16,021 bases of DNA from the NCBI GenBank assembly GCA_003165855.1, contig PMXH01000530.1:1-16021 (forward strand), read 5' to 3'. Below are positions 6,365 through 15,654 of the stretch, piece after piece. Made by a program: the position numbers and the translations under genes. The stretch is from Acidobacteriaceae bacterium. GTDB lineage: Bacteria > Acidobacteriota > Terriglobia > Terriglobales > Acidobacteriaceae. Within the stretch, counting starts at the first letter, position 1. Every line of letters starts with the position of its first letter. The notes beneath the pieces are model-generated. The model saw only the letters and a list, made by a program, of their open reading frames with translations, searched no databases and was not told the DNA's origin.

Positions 6365-7003
6365 ATGAAGAGAGCAGCCCTGTACGTGCGCGTCAGCACC
6401 GTCGACCAGCACCCGGAGACCCAACTGCACGATCTCCGGCAGCTCGCCGCCCAGCGCGGGCTTCAGATCGTCGGGGAATACGTGGACCACGGATTCAGCG
6501 GAATGCGGGCGCGGCGGCCCGAGCTCGACAGGATGATGGAGGACGCCCGCCGCCACAAGTTCGACGTTCTGGTGGTCTGGGCGTGCGACAGGCTCGCGAG
6601 GAGCACCAGGCACCTGCTCCAGACGCTCGACGAGCTCTCGGGGTTCGGCATCCAGTTCCTCTCGCAGCGCGAGGCGATCGACACCGAGGGACCGCTCGGC
6701 AGGGCCATCATCGTCATCGTGTCGGCGATGGCGGAGCTGGAGCGGTGCATCATCATCGAGCGCGTGCGGGCAGGGATGCGCCGCGCGAAGCTGGAGGGCC
6801 GTCAGATCGGCAGGTCGCGGCTGGACGTGGACCGGGAGCAGGTCGTCACAGACCGCCGCTCCGGGATGTCGCTGACGCAGGTCGCCAAGCGCCACAACAT
6901 TTCAAGGGCCTCAGTGTGCCGCCTGATGAAGGGGGCGAATGCTGATAGCTCTCCTGCGGTTCTGCCCGCAGGGGAAGACCTCCGGCGTAAGGCTCAGCTT
7001 TAG
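6365..7003 (+). CDS. Serine recombinase (resolvase/invertase family, 212 aa)
   Basis: The N-terminal catalytic domain starts at residue 1 with AALYVRVSTVDQ, giving the nucleophile S11 and the adjacent R9. It continues through GFSGMRARRPELDRMM (43-58) and WACDRLARS (72-80, with the expected R76 and R79) to the E-helix AELERCIIIERVRAGMRRAK (123-142). A helix-turn-helix for DNA binding follows at about 168-188 (MSLTQVAKRHNISRASVCRL). The length is normal for a small resolvase or invertase. About 22 extra residues follow the HTH and contain a GC-rich palindrome in the DNA. The ATG at 6365 follows GAGGAG by 10 nt. The enzyme would cut and rejoin DNA at paired short sites through a 5' phosphoserine link. 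It is the best evidence that 4.7-7.5 kb is an accessory module. Confidence 0.92.
   Translation: MKRAALYVRVSTVDQHPETQLHDLRQLAAQRGLQIVGEYVDHGFSGMRARRPELDRMMEDARRHKFDVLVVWACDRLARSTRHLLQTLDELSGFGIQFLSQREAIDTEGPLGRAIIVIVSAMAELERCIIIERVRAGMRRAKLEGRQIGRSRLDVDREQVVTDRRSGMSLTQVAKRHNISRASVCRLMKGANADSSPAVLPAGEDLRRKAQL
6953..6972. repeat. GC-rich palindrome at the 3' end of the recombinase gene
   Basis: CCTGCGG (6953-6959) and CCGCAGG (6966-6972) are perfect inverted repeats around a 6-nt loop. They lie in the codons after the helix-turn-helix, in the C-terminal extension of the recombinase. It could be an RNA hairpin between recombinase and downstream genes, or part of a recombination site. No second copy was seen in the window. 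Confidence 0.4.
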
Positions 7004-7061
7004 TGGTGACGCAAAATGAATCACGACATCGACCATTTCTTCGGGGAGGAGTATCACGGCA

Positions 7062-7337
7062 ATGACGCTGAGAGAGAACATCGAGAAGCACAACCCGGAC
7101 GCGTTGTTCCTCAGCCAGTACGGCGACGCGCTCGTCGGAATGACCCTGGGGGACCATCCCGTCGCCGTATACGACTTCGACCTGATGGTCGCACGATTCA
7201 GGAAGCTGGACTGGTCCACTGAAAAGACGCGCGATGAGGCGGAGAAGTGCATCGTCAAGAATTTCCGGGCGGTATACCCGAAGCCCAACTTCCCCGTGAT
7301 ACTTCGCAGAAATGTCCCTGAGCACAAGGATCAATGA
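7062..7337 (+). CDS. Hypothetical protein of the recombinase module (91 aa)
   Basis: This is a 91-residue soluble protein that I do not recognise. It is mixed alpha/beta in appearance, with LGDHPVAVYDFDLMVARF in the middle and a helical, charged stretch (STEKTRDEAEKCIVKNF) before a Pro-rich tail. There is no signal peptide or membrane segment. GGGGAGGAG lies about 10 nt upstream of the ATG. The same DNA also opens an overlapping plus-strand frame at 7016, which I regard as a shadow. The TGA stop overlaps the ATG of the next gene (ATGA), so the two are probably translated together. The setting suggests an accessory protein of the mobile module. Confidence 0.6.
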   Translation: MTLRENIEKHNPDALFLSQYGDALVGMTLGDHPVAVYDFDLMVARFRKLDWSTEKTRDEAEKCIVKNFRAVYPKPNFPVILRRNVPEHKDQ

Positions 7338-7534
7338 GCCAAGACATCGAGATAAGGGAAGCCCAGAAAACTCGTCGAAGCGCACGCGCCGACCAGGTCG
7401 GCAAGGTCTTCATCGTCGTCGGTCAGGAGGTTCGCCAGTGCTTGGTCTGTGAATGTGTGTTCACGCGGCGGGCATCCTGTGAGCATTCAACGGTTCCCTG
7501 CATGCCAGTTATCGCCATGAAGGAAGTAAGGTAA
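7334..7534 (+). CDS. Small zinc-finger-like hypothetical protein (66 aa)
   Basis: The start codon overlaps the previous stop as ATGA, implying translational coupling. The first 20 residues are charged and helical. Residues 33-57 contain RQCLVCECVFTR, then CEH and PC. C36, C39, H51 and C56 make a C-x2-C-x11-H-x4-C pattern that could hold one zinc ion, with C41 and C49 spare. I do not know the family; a small DNA- or RNA-binding accessory role is inference. Its last codons and stop overlap the start of the repeat shared with the kinase-2 region (7527-7547), so the end of this gene marks the edge of the conserved kinase upstream block. Confidence 0.5.
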   Translation: MSQDIEIREAQKTRRSARADQVGKVFIVVGQEVRQCLVCECVFTRRASCEHSTVPCMPVIAMKEVR

Positions 7535-7547
7535 GGTTTGCCGACAA
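7527..7547 (+). repeat. Copy A of a 21-nt repeat upstream of kinase 1
   Basis: The 21 nt begin TAAGGTAAGG and end TTGCCGACAA. They match 10400-10420 at 20 of 21 positions (T versus G at position 11). In this copy the repeat runs directly on into CCCAGAATCG (7553-7562) and the kinase-1 promoter. It therefore forms the outer edge of a block shared by the two kinase genes. Confidence 0.85.
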
Positions 7548-7609
7548 CCCACCCCAGAATCGTCGGCCTCACTGCGACGGCTTGCTCAGGGCTATAATTT
7601 CACGCACGG
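7542..7609 (+). promoter_or_regulatory. Kinase-1 promoter with near-leaderless start
   Basis: TATAAT at 7593-7598 is a perfect -10 hexamer and ends 11 nt before the ATG at 7610. A transcript starting 6-8 nt after it would have a leader of only a few bases. No Shine-Dalgarno is visible. No good -35 is present at the usual distance; TTGCTC (7582-7587) is too close. Upstream, CGACAA (7542-7547) and CCCAGAATCG (7553-7562) recur at nearly the same distances before kinase 2, so they are candidate activator sites. Confidence 0.6.
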
Positions 7610-10309
7610 ATGGCCCTTACCTCTGGCACGAAGCTCGGACCCTATGAAATCCAGTCACCGCTGGGCGCCGGCGGCATGGGTGAGGTGTACCGAGCCGTGG
7701 ACACGCGTCTTGACCGTACCGTCGCCATCAAGGTTCTGCCGGCGCATCTTTCCTCTGATCCGGAACTAAAACAACGCCTGGAGCGGGAAGCCAAGACGAT
7801 CTCCTCGCTGCAACATGTCAATATCTGCACGCTCTACGACATCGGCACTCAGGGCGACACGGATTTTCTGGTCATGGAGTATCTGGAGGGCCAGACTCTG
7901 GCCGACCGCCTGCAAAAAGGTCCGCTGCCAGTCGATCAACTTCTGAAGATTGCGACAGAAATCGCGCAGGCTCTTGAGAAGGCGCATCAACGAGGCATTA
8001 TCCATCGCGATCTGAAGCCAGCGAACATCATGCTGACACAAGCTGGCGCCAAGCTAATGGATTTTGGACTGGCAAAACCGAAATTGCCAAATGCCTCGCA
8101 AGCTTTGGGTACGTTCACTCCCTCCACGCCGACGATGAACCTCGCTTCGTTGACGTCGGCTGCGTCCCCGCTGACCCAGAAAGGTTCGATCGTCGGGACG
8201 TTCCAATACATGGCTCCGGAGGTGTTGCAGGGAGCAGATTCCGACGCCCGCAGCGACGTCTTCAGTCTGGGCTGCGTTCTCTATGAAATGGTCACCGGAC
8301 GCCGCGCCTTCGAGGGCAAAACCCAGCTAAGCGTGATGAGCGCAATCCTGGAAAAAGATCCCGAGCCGCTAGCGAACGTGCAGCCCACTTCACCGGCGGC
8401 CCTTGACTACACAGTGCGGAACTGTCTCGAGAAAAATCCTGACGAGCGCATCCAGACTGCGCACGACGTCAAACTGCAACTGGCATGGATTGCGACCTTC
8501 AGTTCGCAGAAGGGTGCTCCGACCCTGCCTCCGCCTTCCAAGCCGCGCTCCAAGTTGTGGCTTGCAGCCATTGCGGTTCTCACGCTGGCGACGATTGCGT
8601 TGACTTTGGCGCTGGTGTGGCCTGCATCGCGGCGGCGCGTGCTGCGAGTGAATCTTCTTCCGCCCGACGGAACGCGATTCGAAACGCTCTACCGAAACGG
8701 AGCTCCAGCGCTTTCTCCCGACGGCACGCAACTCGCGTTCATCGCTCAGAAGGACGGCAAGAATGGGCTGTGGCTTCGGTCGCTCGATCGGCTCGAGGCC
8801 ACGCCCGTGCCCGGCACCGACGATGCCTATTTTCCCTTCTGGTCACCCGATGGCACGGCCGTGGCGTTTTTCATGCGGGGCAAGCTGTGGCGAACGGATC
8901 TGAACGGCGGCTCACCCACCTCGATCTGTGACGCGCCGGAAGCCCGCGGCGGATCCTGGGGGCGCGGCGATATCATCATTTTCGCGCCGATGTTCGGAGG
9001 GCCGATTTTCCAGGTTCCCGCAGCCGGTGGAAAGCCTAAGCCGGTCACCGGCGTTCCCGTGGCCTCCACCAATGTCTCGGACCGGTGGCCTTCCTTCCTC
9101 CCCGATGGGAAACATTTTCTGTTTCTGAACAGCCCTTACGGCAACGCGGGTGATCAGAATGAAGTTCGCCTGGCTTCGCTCGACGGCGACACCCAACTGC
9201 TGCTGCGAGGAAAATTCTACGGCGCACACTATGCCTCCGGGCGTTTGCTGGCGGTTCGCGACGGCTCGCTTCTAGCCTGGAAGTTCGACCCTTCCAGCGG
9301 CAAGATTTCTGGCGATCCAGTAACCGTCGTCGATAAGGTCGCATCTGACGAAATCACCGCGTTGTCCGTGGTTTCCTTTTCGGCACAGGGCATGTTGCTC
9401 TACCAGTTGGGCACGGGGCCGAATGGCGATCGCCACCTTTGGATGGATGCCGCGGGCAAAGTGCTTTCCCAGCTTTCCGAACCTTCAGTCTATGGCCCTA
9501 TTCGGATTTCGCCCGATGGTTCTCGCATCGCGACGCCGGTGATGAGCCAATTCGGCAACTCTCCGCTTTGGATCTGGGACTTGGCCGGAGGAACCCGCAG
9601 CATCGTCTCTGCGGCCACTGAATATGTGGATGCTTCGGTCTGGTCGGCGGACGGCCGCACTCTTTACTTCGATTTCTTCAAAACCGTCTTCCATAACGAA
9701 CTACACGCGGTGACGGTGGACGGATCTCAGCCCGAGCGCGTTCTGATCAAGTCCGACCGCGACGTCATGCCCCAAGATGTGACCGGCGACGGAAAGTGGC
9801 TTCTCTATGAAGAGGCCAAAGCAGGTGACCTCGCGAATGCCGAGTTGAAAGCCTTTCCGCTCACGCCCGGCCTCGAACCCTTCCGTGTGCTGGAACCGGT
9901 GGATGACCTGGGCAACGCCCGACTCAAGCCCGGCTCCAATGACTGGCTGGCCTATCAGTCGAGTGAATCTGGGCAATCACAGGTCTACCTCACGCGCTTT
10001 CCTCATCCGGGAGCGAAGTACCAGGTCTCGAAAGACGGCGGTACGCAGCCAGTTTGGAGCAAGGACGGCAAAACCCTCTACTACCTTGATTCTTATAGAA
10101 AGCTGACGGCCGTAGATATTCAGACGCATGACCAGGCGGTGCAGATTGGCGCGGCCAAACCCTTGTTTACGACCCGCATTCGCCACTCCATTGCAACCGA
10201 GGCGTACGACGTCGCCCGCGACGGCAGATTCCTGGTGGTGGACTCGATCACCGAGAGCACAGCGCCGCTGGTGCTGGTCACAAACTGGGACGCGGAACTG
10301 AAAAAATGA
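7610..10309 (+). CDS. Membrane Ser/Thr protein kinase with TolB/PD40 beta-propeller (899 aa)
   Basis: Residues about 12-290 form a complete, apparently active Hanks-type kinase: glycine loop GAGGMG (19-24), Lys41 in VAIKVL, HRDLKPAN with Asp134, DFG at 151-153, and APE at 202-204. The activation segment carries an unusually long Ser/Thr-rich stretch (about 160-195). A single membrane span follows (about 316-338), then a large outer domain with repeated propeller motifs such as LSPDGTQLAF, WSPDGTAVAF, FLPDGKHFLF and ISPDGSRIAT, ending in TNWDAEL. The kinase would face the cytoplasm and the propeller the periplasm, where it may sense a ligand or protein. This architecture is common in Acidobacteriota. 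The ATG at 7610 has no ribosome binding site; see the promoter entry. Substrates are unknown. Confidence 0.95.
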   Translation: MALTSGTKLGPYEIQSPLGAGGMGEVYRAVDTRLDRTVAIKVLPAHLSSDPELKQRLEREAKTISSLQHVNICTLYDIGTQGDTDFLVMEYLEGQTLADRLQKGPLPVDQLLKIATEIAQALEKAHQRGIIHRDLKPANIMLTQAGAKLMDFGLAKPKLPNASQALGTFTPSTPTMNLASLTSAASPLTQKGSIVGTFQYMAPEVLQGADSDARSDVFSLGCVLYEMVTGRRAFEGKTQLSVMSAILEKDPEPLANVQPTSPAALDYTVRNCLEKNPDERIQTAHDVKLQLAWIATFSSQKGAPTLPPPSKPRSKLWLAAIAVLTLATIALTLALVWPASRRRVLRVNLLPPDGTRFETLYRNGAPALSPDGTQLAFIAQKDGKNGLWLRSLDRLEATPVPGTDDAYFPFWSPDGTAVAFFMRGKLWRTDLNGGSPTSICDAPEARGGSWGRGDIIIFAPMFGGPIFQVPAAGGKPKPVTGVPVASTNVSDRWPSFLPDGKHFLFLNSPYGNAGDQNEVRLASLDGDTQLLLRGKFYGAHYASGRLLAVRDGSLLAWKFDPSSGKISGDPVTVVDKVASDEITALSVVSFSAQGMLLYQLGTGPNGDRHLWMDAAGKVLSQLSEPSVYGPIRISPDGSRIATPVMSQFGNSPLWIWDLAGGTRSIVSAATEYVDASVWSADGRTLYFDFFKTVFHNELHAVTVDGSQPERVLIKSDRDVMPQDVTGDGKWLLYEEAKAGDLANAELKAFPLTPGLEPFRVLEPVDDLGNARLKPGSNDWLAYQSSESGQSQVYLTRFPHPGAKYQVSKDGGTQPVWSKDGKTLYYLDSYRKLTAVDIQTHDQAVQIGAAKPLFTTRIRHSIATEAYDVARDGRFLVVDSITESTAPLVLVTNWDAELKK

Positions 10310-10383
10310 GCCCCACTGCGCAATCGGAAATTTAGAGAACTTTCGTTTGGCCTGCGGGGGAACTCATCCTGGATAACGGGCCA

Positions 10384-10410
10384 CCCTTACCTGATCCGAT
10401 AAGGTAAGGG
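10384..10410. repeat. Inverted repeat between kinase 1 and the mobile element
   Basis: CCCTTACC (10384-10391) and GGTAAGGG (10403-10410) form a perfect 8-bp stem with an 11-nt loop. The right arm is part of copy B of the kinase-upstream repeat. It lies 75 nt after the kinase-1 stop and could help end transcription, but no T tract follows. The rest of 10310-10383 shows no gene or obvious signal. Confidence 0.55.
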
Positions 10411-10420
10411 TTGCCGACAA
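10400..10420 (+). repeat. Copy B of the 21-nt repeat, displaced outer part of the kinase-2 upstream region
   Basis: This copy matches 7527-7547 at 20 of 21 positions. Directly after CGACAA (10415-10420) the similarity to the kinase-1 upstream region stops and mobile-element sequence begins. Similarity resumes at 12922 with another CGACAA. This is the left junction of the insertion. Confidence 0.8.
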
Positions 10421-10425
10421 GGACT

Positions 10426-10447
10426 AAGCCGCTGGCGCGGCGGACGC
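10426..10447 (+). repeat. Left subterminal inverted repeat of the IS91-like element
   Basis: AAGCCGCTGGCG followed directly by CGGCGGACGC. The same two blocks, separated by TTTG, occur in reverse complement at 12807-12832. This copy can itself fold as GCCGC-TGGC-GCGGC (10428-10441). Confidence 0.8.
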
Positions 10448-10517
10448 TACCGCGTGGTGAACCAGGAAAGTTCAGGAACGACTGACATAGTGTGGGTCAT
10501 AGGGAAAGGAGATTCCT

Positions 10518-11414
10518 GTGACCCGTTTACGCAAGATGATGCTGGAGGAACTCCAGCGTCGCAACTATTCTGCCATCACCACACGCAATTACTTGCGGGT
10601 GGTGACCGAGTTCGCCAAGTATTTCGGCAAGTCTCCCGACAAGCTCGGCCCCAACGAACTTCGAACCTATCAAGCCTATCTGCTGACGGAGCGCAAACTG
10701 ACGCCCGGCACGGTGGTCAACCGGGTAGCGGCGCTGCGGTTTTTTTTCGTCAAGACACTCAAGCGGTATCAGTTTCGCGAGTTCTTGCCGTACCCCCGGG
10801 ACCGGCGTCGGCTGCCGACGGTGCTGAGCCAGGAGGAAGTCTCGCAGCTGATCAATGGCGCCGGAAACCTGTTTCGACGGACGTTGCTGATGACACTCTA
10901 CGGAACCGGCATGCGACGCGCCGAACTCGCGCGTCTCAAGGTCGGCGACGTCGATAGCCAACGGATGATCATCCGCGTGGTGGAAGGCAAGGGCGGCAAA
11001 GATCGTGACCTGCCTCTGAGTCCGGCTCTATTGGAGACGCTGCGAGAGTATTGGCGCTGGCGGAAGCCGAAGCTCTACATGTTCCCCACACGCACTCGTG
11101 GCCGGACGCTCGATCAGCCGATTTCCGACAAGACCGTCTGGATCGCGTGTAGCGAAGCCGCGCACCGGGCCGGCATCCGCAAACGGGTCACCCCGCATAC
11201 GCTGCGCCACAGTTGGGCGACCCACTTGTTGGAGGCGGGCACCGACCTGCGCACCATCCAGGTTCTGCTCGGGCACGGCGATCTGGAAACTACTGCCCAG
11301 TATTTGCATCTGTCACAGCGGCACTTACAGGCAGTTACGAATCCGCTGGACAGTCTCTCTCTATCCAGCACCGAGAACATCAGCCGCAGTTTTAAACGGA
11401 AAAGCGAAAAATGA
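10518..11414 (+). CDS. Tyrosine recombinase (XerC/D-like) of the IS91-like element (298 aa)
   Basis: Residues about 1-90 form the SAM-like N-terminal DNA-binding domain (LEELQRRNYSAITTRNYL, then TVVNRVAALRFFF). The catalytic domain shows all expected residues: R133 in GTGMRRAELARL, K158 in GKGGKDR, H227 and R230 in HTLRHSWATH, H253 in LLGHGD, and the nucleophile Y262 in TTAQYLHL. The length is standard. The start is GTG at 10518 with GGAG 6 nt upstream. It overlaps the transposase gene by ATGA, so the two are made together. A subgroup of IS91-related elements is known to carry such a recombinase beside the HUH transposase; its role there is not settled. It may resolve or integrate transposition intermediates at short core sites. 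Confidence 0.93.
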   Translation: MTRLRKMMLEELQRRNYSAITTRNYLRVVTEFAKYFGKSPDKLGPNELRTYQAYLLTERKLTPGTVVNRVAALRFFFVKTLKRYQFREFLPYPRDRRRLPTVLSQEEVSQLINGAGNLFRRTLLMTLYGTGMRRAELARLKVGDVDSQRMIIRVVEGKGGKDRDLPLSPALLETLREYWRWRKPKLYMFPTRTRGRTLDQPISDKTVWIACSEAAHRAGIRKRVTPHTLRHSWATHLLEAGTDLRTIQVLLGHGDLETTAQYLHLSQRHLQAVTNPLDSLSLSSTENISRSFKRKSEK

Positions 11415-12592
11415 CTCGGCCCACCTTCGAGGTGGCCGACATCCTTCGCGCGCAGGGTGATCGCTTCCTGGATCGCTATCGATCGGGCTTTGACTTTCAG
11501 CAGCTCAAAGCGTTTCGTGCCATTCTGCGCTGCCGTACCGCTGCGCTGGGCGGTCATCGCGATGCCTGCCCGAGCTGCGGTCATCAGGCTATCTCGTACA
11601 ATTCGTGCAGAAACCGGCACTGCCCCAAGTGCCAGACCCAAGCACGCGAACGCTGGCTGGCGGCCCGCGAACGCGAACTCCTGACTACCAGCTACTTCCA
11701 TGTCGTGTTCACCGTGCCCCACGAACTCAACGTGCTGGCCTTGGAAAACCCGCGTTTGTTCTACGACTTGTTGTTCGCTGCCAGCGCACAAACCTTGCTG
11801 GAGATCGCCATCGATCGCAAACACTTGGGCGCCGAGATCGGCATGATCAGCATCCTGCACACTTGGGGACAGAACCTGCTTCTGCATCCCCACATACACT
11901 GCGCCATTCCTGCGGGCGGACTTTCACCAGATCACCGTCAATGGGTCCGCCCACGCTATGCTTTCTTCTTACCCGTGAAGATCCTCAGCCGCGTCTTTCG
12001 CGGCAAGTTCCTCGCCCGCCTGAAACGTCTGCACAGTCGCAACAAGCTATGTTGCAACGGTCCCGCCGCCGCTCTGGCCGATCCGCAGCAGTTCGCAAAA
12101 CTCATGCGCCGTCTGCACCGCCACGACTGGGTTGTCTATGCCAAGCCCGCCTTCGGCGGACCCATGCAGGTGTTGCGCTACCTCGGCCGTTACACCCATC
12201 GCGTGGCCATTTCCAATCATCGCTTATTGGCCTTCGACCAAGAACGCGTCACCTTTCGCTGGAAGGATTACGCCCACGGCGGCAAGCATGGCAAGATGAC
12301 CCTTGCGGCCACCGAGTTCTTACGGCGTTTCTTTCTGCACGTGCTCCCCAGAGGATTCGTGCGCATCCGTCACTTTGGTTTCCTCGCCAATCGCTTTCGC
12401 TGTTCCCGCTTGGCACTATCCCGACAACTGCTGTCCAGTAGCTCCTCCACGCTGGTCGAGGCTGGAACCTCCCAAGCTTCGGCGGAGAGTTCTTCTGTCT
12501 GGCATTGCCCACGTTGCGGCGCGGCCATGATCGTGATGCAGAGATTTACGGCTGCGGAATTATCAACATGCTCTTACTTCGATTCTTCATAG
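11411..12592 (+). CDS. IS91-family transposase (Y2 HUH rolling-circle type, 393 aa)
   Basis: The N-terminal zinc-binding region has CPSCG (C53, C56), C66 and RHCPKC (C71, C74). The HUH metal-binding motif is HPHIHC (H161-I-H163), inside LLLHPHIHCAIPAGG. The catalytic tyrosines are Y257 and Y261 in RYLGRYTHR, the Y-x3-Y arrangement of two-tyrosine transposases. A second zinc pair, CPRCG, lies near the C-terminus before RFTAAEL. The length and domain order are normal and nothing is interrupted, so the enzyme may be active. It nicks the element end and drives single-strand, rolling-circle-like transposition. Translation is coupled to the upstream recombinase gene through the ATGA overlap at 11411-11414. 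Confidence 0.95.
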   Translation: MTRPTFEVADILRAQGDRFLDRYRSGFDFQQLKAFRAILRCRTAALGGHRDACPSCGHQAISYNSCRNRHCPKCQTQARERWLAARERELLTTSYFHVVFTVPHELNVLALENPRLFYDLLFAASAQTLLEIAIDRKHLGAEIGMISILHTWGQNLLLHPHIHCAIPAGGLSPDHRQWVRPRYAFFLPVKILSRVFRGKFLARLKRLHSRNKLCCNGPAAALADPQQFAKLMRRLHRHDWVVYAKPAFGGPMQVLRYLGRYTHRVAISNHRLLAFDQERVTFRWKDYAHGGKHGKMTLAATEFLRRFFLHVLPRGFVRIRHFGFLANRFRCSRLALSRQLLSSSSSTLVEAGTSQASAESSSVWHCPRCGAAMIVMQRFTAAELSTCSYFDSS

Positions 12593-12806
12593 CTCGTCCA
12601 CCGCTATCGACCCGAGGATGTGCTCCGGCACGCGGACGCACGCGTGTGTCCGATACTTCTCCACTGCCTCTCAAGCAACTTTCCGCGTGCGCTTTTGCTC
12701 ATCTCAGTCGCCACTCCGACCATCCCGATGGCATTCCCACCAGGCCTCATCGCTCTCCCCAAGCTCTGTTCAGATCCAGGCTGCCGTTGAAATCCCATAG
12801 CGCACC
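12593..12806. other. Non-coding right part of the IS91-like element
   Basis: The roughly 210 nt after the transposase stop show no credible gene. Open frames here lack ribosome binding sites and have shadow-like composition. The region leads into the right subterminal repeat and the distal palindrome, and probably holds the element's cis-acting end. Confidence 0.5.
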
Positions 12807-12832
12807 GCGTCCGCCGCAAACGCCAGCGGCTT
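12807..12832 (-). repeat. Right subterminal inverted repeat of the IS91-like element
   Basis: The reverse complement reads AAGCCGCTGGCG, TTTG, CGGCGGACGC. It is identical to 10426-10447 except for the extra TTTG. A few bases further out, GGAGACTA (reverse complement of 12838-12845) resembles GGACTA at the left edge (10421-10426). Confidence 0.8.
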
Positions 12833-12847
12833 CCTCCTAGTCTCCTT

Positions 12848-12912
12848 ATCGAAAACGCCTCGGACCGAGATCCCGCTCCGCCCCCGCAGTCTGCCCCCGA
12901 GGCGTTTCCGAT
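12848..12912. repeat. Long palindrome abutting CAAG at the right junction
   Basis: ATCGAAAACGCCTCGG (12848-12863) pairs with CCGAGGCGTTTCCGAT (12897-12912) at 15 of 16 positions, with a 33-nt C-rich loop. CAAG follows immediately at 12913-12916. A terminal hairpin beside CAAG fits an IS91-type replication origin end. It could also be a separate small palindromic insertion, because the subterminal repeats end before it. Confidence 0.7.
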
Positions 12913-12921
12913 CAAGGCTAG

Positions 12922-12990
12922 CGACAAACCGCCCAGAATCGATCACATCCTGTGACATCTTGCTCCGCAAGGCTATAATTGCGCACACAA
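12922..12990 (+). promoter_or_regulatory. Kinase-2 promoter with near-leaderless start
   Basis: TATAAT at 12974-12979 ends 11 nt before the ATG at 12991, exactly as for kinase 1. GTGACA at 12952-12957 is a fair -35 with a 16-nt spacer. CGACAA (12922-12927), CCCAGAATCG (12932-12941), TTGCTC (12960-12965) and GGCTATAATT are shared with the kinase-1 upstream region in the same order. No Shine-Dalgarno is present. The upstream outer part of the block has been separated from it by the mobile element. Confidence 0.65.
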
Positions 12991-15654
12991 ATGGGCCTTA
13001 CCTCAGGCACCAAACTCGGGCGGTATGAGATCCTGACTTCCGCCGGCGCTGGCGGCATGGGTGAGGTGTATCGAGCGCGGGACGCGCGGCTGAACCGTGA
13101 TGTGGCCATCAAAGTCCTGCCTGTCGCGTTTGCCAGCGATCAGGAGAGGTTGCGGCGCTTCCAACAGGAGGCGCAGGCGGTGGCTGCGCTTAATCATCCC
13201 AATATTTTGGCGATTCATGATTTTGGCGAGCACGTAGGCTCGCCTTACATCGTCACGGAATTCTTGGAGGGCGAGACCCTGCGCGTCCGCTTGGGGGCGG
13301 GGGCGTTGCCGGTGCGCAAGGCTAGCGAGTATGCGGAGCAGATCGCACGCGGGCTGGCGGCGGCGCATGAGAGGGGCATTGTTCATCGCGACCTGAAGCC
13401 GGAAAACATTTTTGTCACGCGCGACGGGCGGGTGAAGATTCTGGACTTTGGCCTGGCCAAGCTCACACGTCCGGATGCGGCGATTTCTTCCGATGCGGCG
13501 ACACTGGCCTCGCAAACTGAGCCGGGAATTGTGATGGGCACGGCTGGCTACATGTCGCCCGAGCAGGTGAAGGGGCAGGTTGCGGACCATCGGTCAGATC
13601 TGTTCAGCTTTGGGGCGATTCTTTACGAGATGCTTTCGGGCAAGCGCGCGTTTCGCGGCGAGACTTCGGTCGAGACCATGAGCGCGATTCTGAAAGAGGA
13701 TCCGCCGGAGTTTGCGGAAACGAACCGGACGGTTCCGCCTGCGCTCGATAAGATCGTGCGGCACTGCCTGGAGAAGAATCCCGAGGAGCGGTTTCAGTCG
13801 GCGCGCGATGTGGCGTTTGCGCTGGGAGCGCTGTCGGATTCGGGCAGCGCCGCAACGCCTGTGGTTAAGGCGGTAAGCGGAGCATGGGGAAAGAGGTTGC
13901 GCATCGCAGCCGAAGTGTCTCTTGTCGCTGCTGCCATCGCCCTGAGCGTTCTACTCACACGGCGTTCTGAGAAACCGGAACCCAACCTGCAAGCGGCAAT
14001 TCTGCCGCCGCCCGGCGATGGCTTCTGGTCGAACATCACACAGCCAGCGGCGATTTCGCCGGACGGAAAGTTTCTCGCCATCATTGCCATGCGCAACGGC
14101 CACACCCAGTTGTGGTTGCGACGGCTGGATCAGTCCGACGCCCAACCCATTGCGGGCAGCGAGGACGCCTCAAATCCTTTCTGGTCGCCGGATAGCCGCA
14201 ACATCGCATTCTTCGTCCCAGGCAAGCTGAAGAAGGTGAATGTTTCCGGCGGCGGTGTCAGCGACATCTGTCCGGCAGGGGCATTTGGAATTGGGGGAGC
14301 GTGGTCGGCGCGTGGAGTCATCGTTTTTGCAAACTTCGGCGACGCATTAAGAATGGTATCGGACGGCGGCGGCACACCTGAATCGGTTCCCGGCGATGAA
14401 TTGCCGAGTGACTCGCTGTCTCAGATGTGGCCCGCATTTCTTCCTGATGGAAAACACTTTCTATTCTTGCAATGGAAATATCCATCCTTTGGTACGCCAG
14501 ATGACAATGTGTGGATCGGTTCTATCGACGGGGAAAAGTCAAAACGGCTTTCGCTGACCTCGACCAACGCGCAGTACTCGGAGGGATATCTGTTGTTCAG
14601 CCGAGACGGCGATCTGGTCGCGCAGAAGTTCGACCTCGGAGGGTTGGAACTGATTGGAGCTGTATTGCCTGTGGTGAGACAGATTCAATATCACACATTT
14701 CTGCATAACGGCGCGTTCACGGTTTCATCGAACGGCATCATGGTTTATGGAACGGCGGGAACCGGGGTCAATAGCCAGATGGCATGGCTGGACAGGACGG
14801 GGAAGACGATTGGGACGTTGGGCGAGCCGGGACTCTTGATTCGGCCGTCCATTTCACCCGATGGAAAGCGAGTCGCTGTTGGTATTTCGCCAAGTGATGC
14901 GCGGGAGAAAATCTGGATTTATGACGTGGAGCGAGGCACTCGCATTCCTCTCGTAGGCGAGGAATCCGGCCCAAACTTGTACCATCCTATCTGGTCTCCG
15001 GATGGCAAGCAGATCGTATATCGAGACACCGTGGGAAAGGATTCGACTCTCGTCGTGCACAACTCTGACGGCTCAGGAGAAGAACGGCGGCCCGGCGGAA
15101 TGCATTTCGACCTCATTGACCCGAGCGACTGGTCCCCCGACGGCCGCTATGTTTCCGTTGAACTGACCAAGTTTCGGGGCCGCGGGAACTGGCAGAACGT
15201 CCTTCGTGTGGCGGAACTCAAAACAGGGAAAGCCATATTCGATATCGATGATGCGAGCGGGGGCAAATTCTCCCCTGACGGGCATTGGCTTGCTTACTGC
15301 GATGGAAGCAGTGGACAAGTGTATGTAACCTCGTTTCCCGTACGAGGAGCCAAGATTGCCGTGGAATCCGCGGGCGCAGGCGATGTGCGGTGGCGTGGGG
15401 ACGGACAAGAATTGTTCTACGTAACCGATGATCAGATGATGACAGCCGTGCAGGTACATGAATCAGCGCAGGAGTTTCGGGTGCTATCTTCTCAGCCGCT
15501 ATTCCAGTTGCAGCTTCCAGACAATGTCGGTTTTTATGATGTCACGCGCGACGGCAAGCGTTTCCTGGTGAACGTCAGGACATGGAAGGAGCAAACCAAG
15601 CCCCTGATGGTCATTACAAACTGGACCGACGAACTACAGAACTCCGGCAAGTAA
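12991..15654 (+). CDS. Membrane Ser/Thr protein kinase with TolB/PD40 beta-propeller, paralogue of 7610-10309 (887 aa)
   Basis: The kinase domain (about 12-280) is complete: GAGGMG loop (19-24), Lys41, HRDLKPEN with Asp134, DFG at 152-154, and SPE at 189-191 in place of APE. The activation segment is shorter than in kinase 1. A membrane span lies at about 303-323, and the outer domain repeats the propeller motif: ISPDGKFLAI, WSPDSRNIAFF, FLPDGKHFLF, ISPDGKRVAV, WSPDGKQIVY, WSPDGRYVSV and FSPDGHWLAY, ending in TNWTDEL. It probably passes a periplasmic signal to cytoplasmic targets. The ATG at 12991 matches the start of kinase 1 (M-x-LTSGTKLG-x-YEI); an upstream TTG at 12979 overlaps the -10 box and is rejected. 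The paralogues probably arose by tandem duplication. Confidence 0.95.
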   Translation: MGLTSGTKLGRYEILTSAGAGGMGEVYRARDARLNRDVAIKVLPVAFASDQERLRRFQQEAQAVAALNHPNILAIHDFGEHVGSPYIVTEFLEGETLRVRLGAGALPVRKASEYAEQIARGLAAAHERGIVHRDLKPENIFVTRDGRVKILDFGLAKLTRPDAAISSDAATLASQTEPGIVMGTAGYMSPEQVKGQVADHRSDLFSFGAILYEMLSGKRAFRGETSVETMSAILKEDPPEFAETNRTVPPALDKIVRHCLEKNPEERFQSARDVAFALGALSDSGSAATPVVKAVSGAWGKRLRIAAEVSLVAAAIALSVLLTRRSEKPEPNLQAAILPPPGDGFWSNITQPAAISPDGKFLAIIAMRNGHTQLWLRRLDQSDAQPIAGSEDASNPFWSPDSRNIAFFVPGKLKKVNVSGGGVSDICPAGAFGIGGAWSARGVIVFANFGDALRMVSDGGGTPESVPGDELPSDSLSQMWPAFLPDGKHFLFLQWKYPSFGTPDDNVWIGSIDGEKSKRLSLTSTNAQYSEGYLLFSRDGDLVAQKFDLGGLELIGAVLPVVRQIQYHTFLHNGAFTVSSNGIMVYGTAGTGVNSQMAWLDRTGKTIGTLGEPGLLIRPSISPDGKRVAVGISPSDAREKIWIYDVERGTRIPLVGEESGPNLYHPIWSPDGKQIVYRDTVGKDSTLVVHNSDGSGEERRPGGMHFDLIDPSDWSPDGRYVSVELTKFRGRGNWQNVLRVAELKTGKAIFDIDDASGGKFSPDGHWLAYCDGSSGQVYVTSFPVRGAKIAVESAGAGDVRWRGDGQELFYVTDDQMMTAVQVHESAQEFRVLSSQPLFQLQLPDNVGFYDVTRDGKRFLVNVRTWKEQTKPLMVITNWTDELQNSGK

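Follow-up and report, generated by a model that had tools for sequence, protein, structure and literature searches.

The locus

We analysed a stretch of 16,021 nucleotides of DNA from an Acidobacteriaceae bacterium, referred to here as the window, in which an IS91-like mobile element lies between the genes of two paralogous serine/threonine kinases (39% amino-acid identity), kinase 1 and kinase 2. The window belongs to contig C15 of genome G000, a fragmented metagenome-assembled genome (MAG) of 4.87 Mb in 610 contigs that is 77% complete. The element carries genes for a Y2/HUH transposase and an IntI/Xer-like tyrosine recombinase. Very probably it inserted 3′ of a CGAC word that forms the right foot of a dispersed hairpin repeat. 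The features of the locus are as follows.

7527-7547, + strand: right arm only (half copy) of the dispersed palindrome, upstream of kinase 1; exact match to 10400-10420
7542-7562, + strand: CGACAA-N5-CCCAGAATCG in the kinase-1 leader, the reference within the window
7610-10309, + strand: kinase 1, Ser/Thr kinase domain and PD40/TolB-like propeller, 899 amino acids; Pfam PF00069, PF07676
10368-10424, + strand: dispersed imperfect palindrome (model R1), arms 10379-10396 and 10398-10415; positions after 10418 lie inside the element
10415-10418, + strand: CGAC, right foot of the palindrome, putative insertion target and left junction; ambiguous within CGACAA at 10415-10420
10416-10437, + strand: left subterminal inverted repeat, 22 nt, 86% complementary to its partner at 12821-12842
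10419-12925, + strand: IS91-like element of 2,507 bp net, with an uncertainty of up to 2 nt at the ends
10518-11414, + strand: element-borne IntI/Xer-like tyrosine recombinase, 298 amino acids; PF00589, E = 5e-41
11411-12592, + strand: IS91-family Y2 transposase, 393 amino acids, motifs HPHIHC and RYLGRY; NF033538, PF04986, PF14319
12821-12842, + strand: right subterminal inverted repeat
12848-12912, + strand: right-end hairpin with 16-nt arms; the terminal CGAC follows 9 nt later
12922-12925, + strand: terminal CGAC, right junction; of the subfamily's 11 right ends, 9 have CGAC and 2 have CGGC
12922-12941, + strand: CGACAA-N4-CCCAGAATCG, start of the kinase-2 leader
12952-12979, + strand: promoter-like site of kinase 2, GTGACA-16-TATAAT, 11 of 12 positions; consensus match only
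12991-15654, + strand: kinase 2, Ser/Thr kinase and PD40 propeller

An interrupted kinase leader

A first-pass annotation of the window had proposed that the element splits blocks conserved upstream of the kinases, and both halves were located, at 10400-10420 and at 12922-12941. The left half is the 21-nt block TAAGGTAAGGKTTGCCGACAA, which occurs at 7527-7547 and 10400-10420; no other place in the window comes within 3 mismatches of it, and none of 200 dinucleotide shuffles contained a match. The CGACAA copies on the two sides begin at 10415 and 12922, 2,507 bp apart. When these 2,507 bp are removed, 174 nt remain between the kinase genes, which is the spacing that the annotation had predicted for the empty site. 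Its claim that joining at CGACAA restores the layout of kinase 1 within about one base also held, as the two leaders differ by a single base in the spacing before CCCAGAATCG (N5 in kinase 1, N4 in kinase 2). The reconstructed empty site between the kinases would read ...GTTGCCGACAAACCGCCCAGAATCG. Because CGACAA stands on both sides, the ends of the element are ambiguous, and the cut could be shifted up to two bases to the right and leave the same empty site. In the window, CGAC is found at 10415-10418 and 12922-12925, with no longer target duplication.

The uninterrupted arrangement, palindrome-CGAC-N6-CCCAGAATCG-TATAAT, was found before kinases of other genomes, exactly at L071 and L058 and with changes at L062, L060 and L035. 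In a search with the kinase-2 leader, at least 17 of the matches listed, that of kinase 1 among them, begin at query position 82-83, which corresponds to window position 12921-12922, the join point. Within genome G000, among the best 6 of 10 matches, the leader from CGAC on is common to kinase 1 and the query alone. The best-scoring non-self match to the kinase-2 leader and gene start was 73% identical.

The block at the left junction is a palindrome arm

The 21-nt block is the right arm of a hairpin at 10379-10415, whose 18-nt arms are 89% complementary. Compared with shuffles, the segment 10368-10420 gave a fold z score of -4.04; the half copy at kinase 1 (7515-7562) folded no better than shuffles (z = 0.06). 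With the 721 bases of 9700-10420 as the query, any match was obtained in 22 of 61 genomes, our own included, and the last 50 or so bases matched scattered places in the genus. We built a 57-position model, R1, from 16 aligned copies, one of which was the window copy with its flanks joined. R1 matched (E up to 0.001) in at least 38 of 45 genomes of the genus, with at least 1 to 27 matches in each genome that had any; these counts are lower bounds, as at most 125 candidates per genome were scored and the filters were strict. A pattern scan of GTDB returned 49 stretches. With the exception of one MAG named Verrucomicrobia, they came from Acidobacteria, Terriglobia or named members (Edaphobacter, Candidatus Sulfotelmatobacter, Candidatus Acidiferrum and Acidoferrales). 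The left foot is GACG/CGTC in many copies, and CACG and AACG variants occur. Besides the A-type palindrome of the window there is a B type, which is described loosely here: the form used for the search gave 15 left arms, and for one of them a right arm lay within 600 nt.

Among 105 distinct palindromes, a kinase starts within 420 nt downstream of 10, and a divergent kinase lies upstream of 4. The word CCAGAA follows the foot in 12 of the 105, five with a kinase and seven with no kinase start in 420 nt. The first-pass annotation had taken the outer block for an upstream element of the kinases, which these counts do not bear out. Kinase regulation was rejected as the role of the 21-nt block, 95 of the 105 palindromes having no kinase start within 420 nt downstream. 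Judged by its distribution, the block is an arm of a dispersed palindrome that serves as a mobile-element site, and not a control element of kinases.

The element and its ends

The transposase scored 446 bits on NF033538 (cut-off 125), which places it in the IS91 family, and its translation shows the HUH and Y-x3-Y motifs. The recombinase reached 192.9 bits on the integron-integrase model TIGR02249, under the cut-off of 265. Four distant relatives of the transposase, with 48-50% identity, were found on viral contigs.

The ends of the element were fixed by aligning left and right ends retrieved from the 45 genomes of the genus; right-end matches were present in 22 of these genomes and left-end matches in 24. 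The left-end alignment lists 31 placements, 2 of which are right ends read in reverse. Left ends are conserved, with changes, from GGACTAAGCCGC on, and right ends at other loci are conserved up to GGCTAGCGAC. Seven of the 11 right ends of the subfamily, window included, are exactly GATCAAGGCTAGCGAC, and four have one to three changes (L131, L083, L081 and L084). An additional exact GATCAAGGCTAGCGAC end, with terminal CGAC, belongs to L205 copy 1. The bases that follow the right ends of the subfamily vary among loci. Folded as single-stranded DNA, the right-end hairpin had a z score of -1.71, with 12 of 200 shuffles equally good, and the layout of a hairpin followed by the terminus recurs at other right ends. 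By eye, the short word to the left of the element (CGAC, CGTTT or GATTT) is the same as the right terminus in 7 of 12 two-ended elements.

Five further loci (L302, L304, L305, L309 and L311) have right ends of the subfamily and no transposase or recombinase match in the roughly 0.9-5.6 kb fetched on the element side. Right ends without a neighbouring transposase are reminiscent of ISCR-type one-ended transposition. Two others (L307 on G002:C39 and L308 on G027:C45) have both element ends about 0.3 kb apart with no match to the element genes, in the manner of miniature inverted-repeat transposable element (MITE)-like derivatives.

The palindrome foot as a probable landing site

In all four close copies whose left junction was read, window included, the element stands at the right foot of a palindrome. 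Two of these palindromes are of A type (the window and L205 copy 1), and two have B-type arms (L303 and L205 copy 2, which is truncated). Another close piece, L106, measures 231 bp and is a fragment that lacks a left end. In the wider family, 10 of 27 distinct flanks matched a palindrome arm at up to 3 mismatches, compared with 2.3% of 20,000 random windows, and 7 of 27 matched at up to 2 mismatches (0.39% of random windows). Since one of the 27 is in fact a reversed right end, the true left flanks number 26, of which 10 match. The flanks ...TTGCCCGTCA at L115 and ...TTGCCCGTAA at L161 correspond to the left foot read on the other strand, and the target words of sister groups are CGTC/CGTT. 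In genome G068 an IS91-like end apparently lies at GGATGAC (by eye). Most palindromes are free: in 105 of 109 distinct copies no core motif of an element end was found within 60 nt of the foot, and of the remaining 4, one has the motif by chance similarity, as judged by eye.

An empty site of the subfamily was found at L168 (genome G064), where the palindrome reads ...GGTTAGCCGAC and continues into CATCCGGCCAGAACC. The occupied counterpart, L082/L302 in genome G062, reads ...GGCTAGCGAC followed by the same CATCCGGCCAGAACC, so that the letters at the junction are GCCGAC|CATCCGGCCAGAACC in the empty site and GCGAC|CATCCGGCCAGAACC at the element end. The common flank extends over 402 aligned columns at 88% identity and ends about 12 nt beyond the junction. 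The first-pass annotation had recommended a search for the kinase pair without the element in relatives. The pair itself did not turn up; an empty site joining at CGAC did, for the subfamily.

As far as such comparisons go, they demonstrate an insertion with boundaries placed within about 2 nt, a left block that is a palindrome arm, and close copies that recur at palindrome feet. The element would have landed between the two kinase genes, 3′ of the CGAC that forms the right foot of the palindrome there. As its own right terminus also ends in CGAC, the word would then stand on both sides with no longer target duplication. What HUH nucleases recognise is a hairpin and a short word beside it. For this reason the transposase may favour palindrome feet, where hairpin and CGAC resemble its own right end (hairpin, 9 nt, CGAC), and it might read the two alike.

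Several observations weigh against this reading. The arm motif was missing from 16 of the 26 left flanks, some of them in subfamilies whose flanks are of another kind (GATTT, CACA). Moreover, the choice of the motif was made after the flanks and the kinase leaders had been viewed, which makes the enrichment partly circular; it appears supportive, not independent. By eye, the words on the two sides are unlike in 5 of the 12 two-ended elements (L101, L089, L120, L125 and L131). In G062 a scaffold gap of 2 N interrupts the hairpin of the right end, and the 5.6 kb fetched there contained no transposase; therefore, the right junction alone is shown at the orthologous site. The L168 palindrome folds no better than many shuffles (z = -1.07). 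The kinase 1/kinase 2 pair without the element was not found in the genomes searched. Finally, the targets known for IS91 are GAAC/CAAG and GTTC, and the CGAC of this subfamily is not among them.

Four other left ends (L116, L117, L120 and L125), in different genomes, share a near-identical 60-nt left flank ending in CCCAGCACA, a type of site that the palindrome leaves unexplained.

Other explanations of the junctions

It might be argued that the arm at 10368-10418 is the true left end of the element and that the kinase region was never split. In several related copies the conserved left end is indeed preceded immediately by an arm-like sequence, and such a block beside left ends at unrelated loci is what the first-pass annotation had named as speaking against a split. 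It was seen in part of the copies. We attribute these arms to the palindrome being the target, because nearly all palindromes lack an element end (the 105 of 109 above) and L168 is unoccupied. In addition, the 16 left flanks without an arm do not agree with an arm inside the element, a palindrome of this kind with no element lies after the kinase-1 orthologue in genome G015, and the arms vary between A and B types while the element ends are conserved. An arm belonging to the element is thus very improbable. The first-pass annotation itself favoured a regulatory module specific to kinases, the outer part of which was lost from kinase 2. The same order of arm, CCCAGAATCG and TATAAT before several kinases of the genus would fit such a module, as would the at least 17 listed matches to the leader from CGAC on. 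However, kinases follow only 10 of the 105 palindromes, CCAGAA occurs after seven feet with no kinase start in 420 nt, the G015 orthologue of kinase 1 (a 96% identical gene) has a different leader, and the promoter-like site of kinase 2 is intact. We consider a kinase-specific module unlikely.

The two halves might also have been joined to the element with no transposition at all, either through homologous recombination or because the metagenome assembly is chimeric at repeats. The fragmentation of the MAG into 610 contigs would allow this, and some breakpoints between species do fall at palindromes. Nevertheless, both typical ends of the element are present, the joined flanks give the layout of the family to the base, and the junction of element and palindrome recurs in other assemblies (L205, L303), so that an origin of this kind is hard to credit. 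For single junctions, an error of MAG assembly is possible.

The first-pass annotation had suggested that the control of kinase 2 may have changed. The suggestion was not supported, as the promoter-like site lies uninterrupted downstream of the junction, beginning 27 bases past it, and the part displaced from kinase 2 by the insertion is the palindrome. A regulatory effect is conceivable, as is one on transcription that reads in from kinase 1 or out of the element, but neither is indicated by the data.

Palindromes at some borders of shared segments

Neighbouring palindromes on a contig had the same orientation in 38 of 40 pairs. The count rests on 148 rows among the palindrome matches listed; two further rows, G000:C172 minus and G032:C6 minus, were set aside as opposite-strand readings of listed copies. 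Ten further pairs, examined by eye, agree in orientation, four of them resting on weak second matches (27.9-33.9 bits). Genes of various types, on either strand, lie between the palindromes.

Contig G015:C111, which holds the best relative of kinase 1 in the genomes searched, matches the window over kinase 1 and its downstream region (7610-10418) with 96% DNA identity. The orthologue is followed by the same kind of palindrome without the element, and then by a different kinase. The leaders of the two kinase-1 orthologues are unlike (window 7527-7610 versus L050 11275-11375), and the 96% identity begins at the ATG and not at a palindrome, which argues against a simple exchange from palindrome to palindrome. 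The kinase-1 leader of the window resembles the leader of another kinase in G026:C276.

Segments of G015:C111 are common to different genomes at 84-98% identity; several of their ends lie inside palindromes and others do not. A 1,393-bp unit (L211 4014-5406, L216 1158-2550) is shared by a fen MAG and Candidatus Acidiferrum typicum with 97.8% identity. Palindrome feet bound it on both sides, and the palindrome centres differ, being of B type in one genome and of A type in the other. Among 76 distinct interior block ends (at least 88% identity), 10 were foot-like in both genomes, compared with 0.16% of 20,000 random position pairs; the loci had largely been chosen for carrying repeats, and the controls came from the same loci. 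A second array (G016:C262, L163) did not repeat the pattern of G015:C111: its 378-bp end segment, shared at 89-98%, does not end at a palindrome, and its other listed segments are 68-87% identical and mostly end at gene ends. This result speaks against a general cassette claim.

The G015 array contains a second tyrosine recombinase gene (L050 4703-5674, minus strand), which lies between two half palindromes and differs from the recombinase of the window. It is distantly IntI-like (38.4 bits on TIGR02249, cut-off 265), and homologues were found in 23 of the 45 genomes of the genus. We read the flanks of the gene at 26 loci, L248-L252 left out, comprising 8 close and 18 distant homologues; the best segments of the close ones are 73-100% identical, apart from L247 (50%, or 81% over a short segment). 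The left foot ACGGGCAA stands about 40-55 nt before the recombinase gene with all 8 letters in L230, L231, L233, L259 and L202, with 7 of 8 in L247 and with 6 of 8 in L253 and L246. None of the 18 distant homologues has the exact 8-letter foot. The exact right foot TTGCCGAC was present within 35 nt after the stop codon in L230 and L231; other close copies are truncated or fused, and their right side is uninformative.

With feet both before and after such genes, the palindrome arms look like the ends of an L050-type recombinase element, and the 57-bp palindromes resemble either attachment sites of that element or a version of it without genes. When a tyrosine recombinase integrates DNA site-specifically, the site is left as direct repeats, and the orientation bias would agree with this. 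We tentatively suggest, though we doubt it somewhat more than we believe it, that the palindromes are recombination sites of an unnamed tyrosine-recombinase element. Each inserted segment would end up flanked by palindromes in direct orientation, and soil Terriglobia would possess an integron-like shuffling of genes without attC sites or an integron integrase, with large kinase genes as some of the units exchanged. IS91-like HUH transposases would be second users of the sites, landing at the feet and perhaps lifting DNA from them. The data give hints of such shuffling, and the proposal is a bold one.

Comparison with known systems

The element shares with IS91 and ISCR elements a Y2/HUH transposase with a zinc-binding domain, a terminal hairpin, a short word common to target and terminus, and the lack of a long target duplication. 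Unlike them, it targets CGAC (CGTC/CGTT in its sisters) at palindrome feet instead of GAAC, CAAG or GTTC, and it has subterminal inverted repeats and an extra gene for an IntI/Xer-like tyrosine recombinase. Some IS91 members carry a tyrosine recombinase gene, on which searches of open full-text literature brought up no title or abstract. One-ended transposition is described for ISCRs and helitrons in PMC5714925.

Repetitive extragenic palindromic (REP) sequences are known targets of insertion sequences. In passages of PMC1525189, IS621, ISPpu9, ISPpu10, IS1397 and others are listed as targeting REPs, the families named are IS3, IS110, IS4, IS256 and IS5, and a table gives IS91 at 1 of 7 copies in a single Shigella genome. 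These elements and ours have in common that they insert at a fixed point of an extragenic palindrome that is dispersed; going by those passages, ours differs in that the targeting family is IS91. Searches of open full-text literature brought up no title or abstract on IS91-family targeting of REP-like palindromes, or on this palindrome, an absence that is weak since subscription papers lay outside the scope.

In passages of PMC3733652, REP and TIR repeats comprise the GTAG and CGTC superfamilies and TIRYT-associated repeats. It describes CGTC-tagged REPs without a dedicated transposase, and CGTC repeats in five phyla, Acidobacteria not being among those given there. It also reports Y1 transposases with inverted-repeat ends in Acidobacteria, with one repeated end family in Koribacter versatilis, and REPs with stems of 8-9 bp and loops of 4-5 nt in head-to-head dimers. 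Set against this account, our palindrome is extragenic and may resemble these repeats in the unpaired word at its foot (in many copies CGTC when the left foot is read on the other strand, with CGAC at the right one). In contrast, its centre is longer and more variable, its loop exceeds the 4-5 nt of REPs, there are at least 1 to 27 model matches per genome of the genus, and neighbours are direct (the 38 of 40 pairs) instead of head-to-head, so that the stem, loop and dimer form of REPs, as given there, is not seen. The palindrome may be identical to the Koribacter versatilis repeat family.

Integron attC arrays also consist of imperfect palindromes in direct orientation between unrelated genes, with conserved ends and a variable centre. 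The likeness extends to some segments shared between species, which break at palindromes, and to the palindrome arms as apparent ends of a recombinase element. Core sites of attC read GTTRRRY/RYYYAAC. By eye, no such core occurs in the 16-copy palindrome consensus, and the centres of the palindromes were not carried along with the L211/L216 unit; both points argue against cassettes. The recombinases of the window (192.9 bits) and of L050 (38.4 bits) also differ from integron integrases in missing the cut-off of 265.

IS91-family elements are known to move neighbouring genes, and little is understood of how the points where they land and stop are chosen. A testable rule, a hairpin with CGAC/CGTC, is offered by a group that inserts at the feet of dispersed hairpins; such a group is a variant within a known family. 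If it is true that the hairpins mark exchange of segments between species and are sites of a dedicated recombinase, they would provide a mechanism by which the genomes of soil Acidobacteria have become large and rich in paralogues. Taken alone, this locus is a modest result, one insertion between two kinase genes with no effect shown.

Other observations

Positions 7000-13100 gave no Rfam match at E values up to 1. Downstream of kinase 2, in reverse orientation, there is another IS91-like right end, which belongs to a different subfamily and has the terminus CTAACGTTT. It occupies positions 16000-16106 of contig C15 (L006) and leaves the window after 16021; within it, 16062-16106 is 96% identical to 12787-12831.

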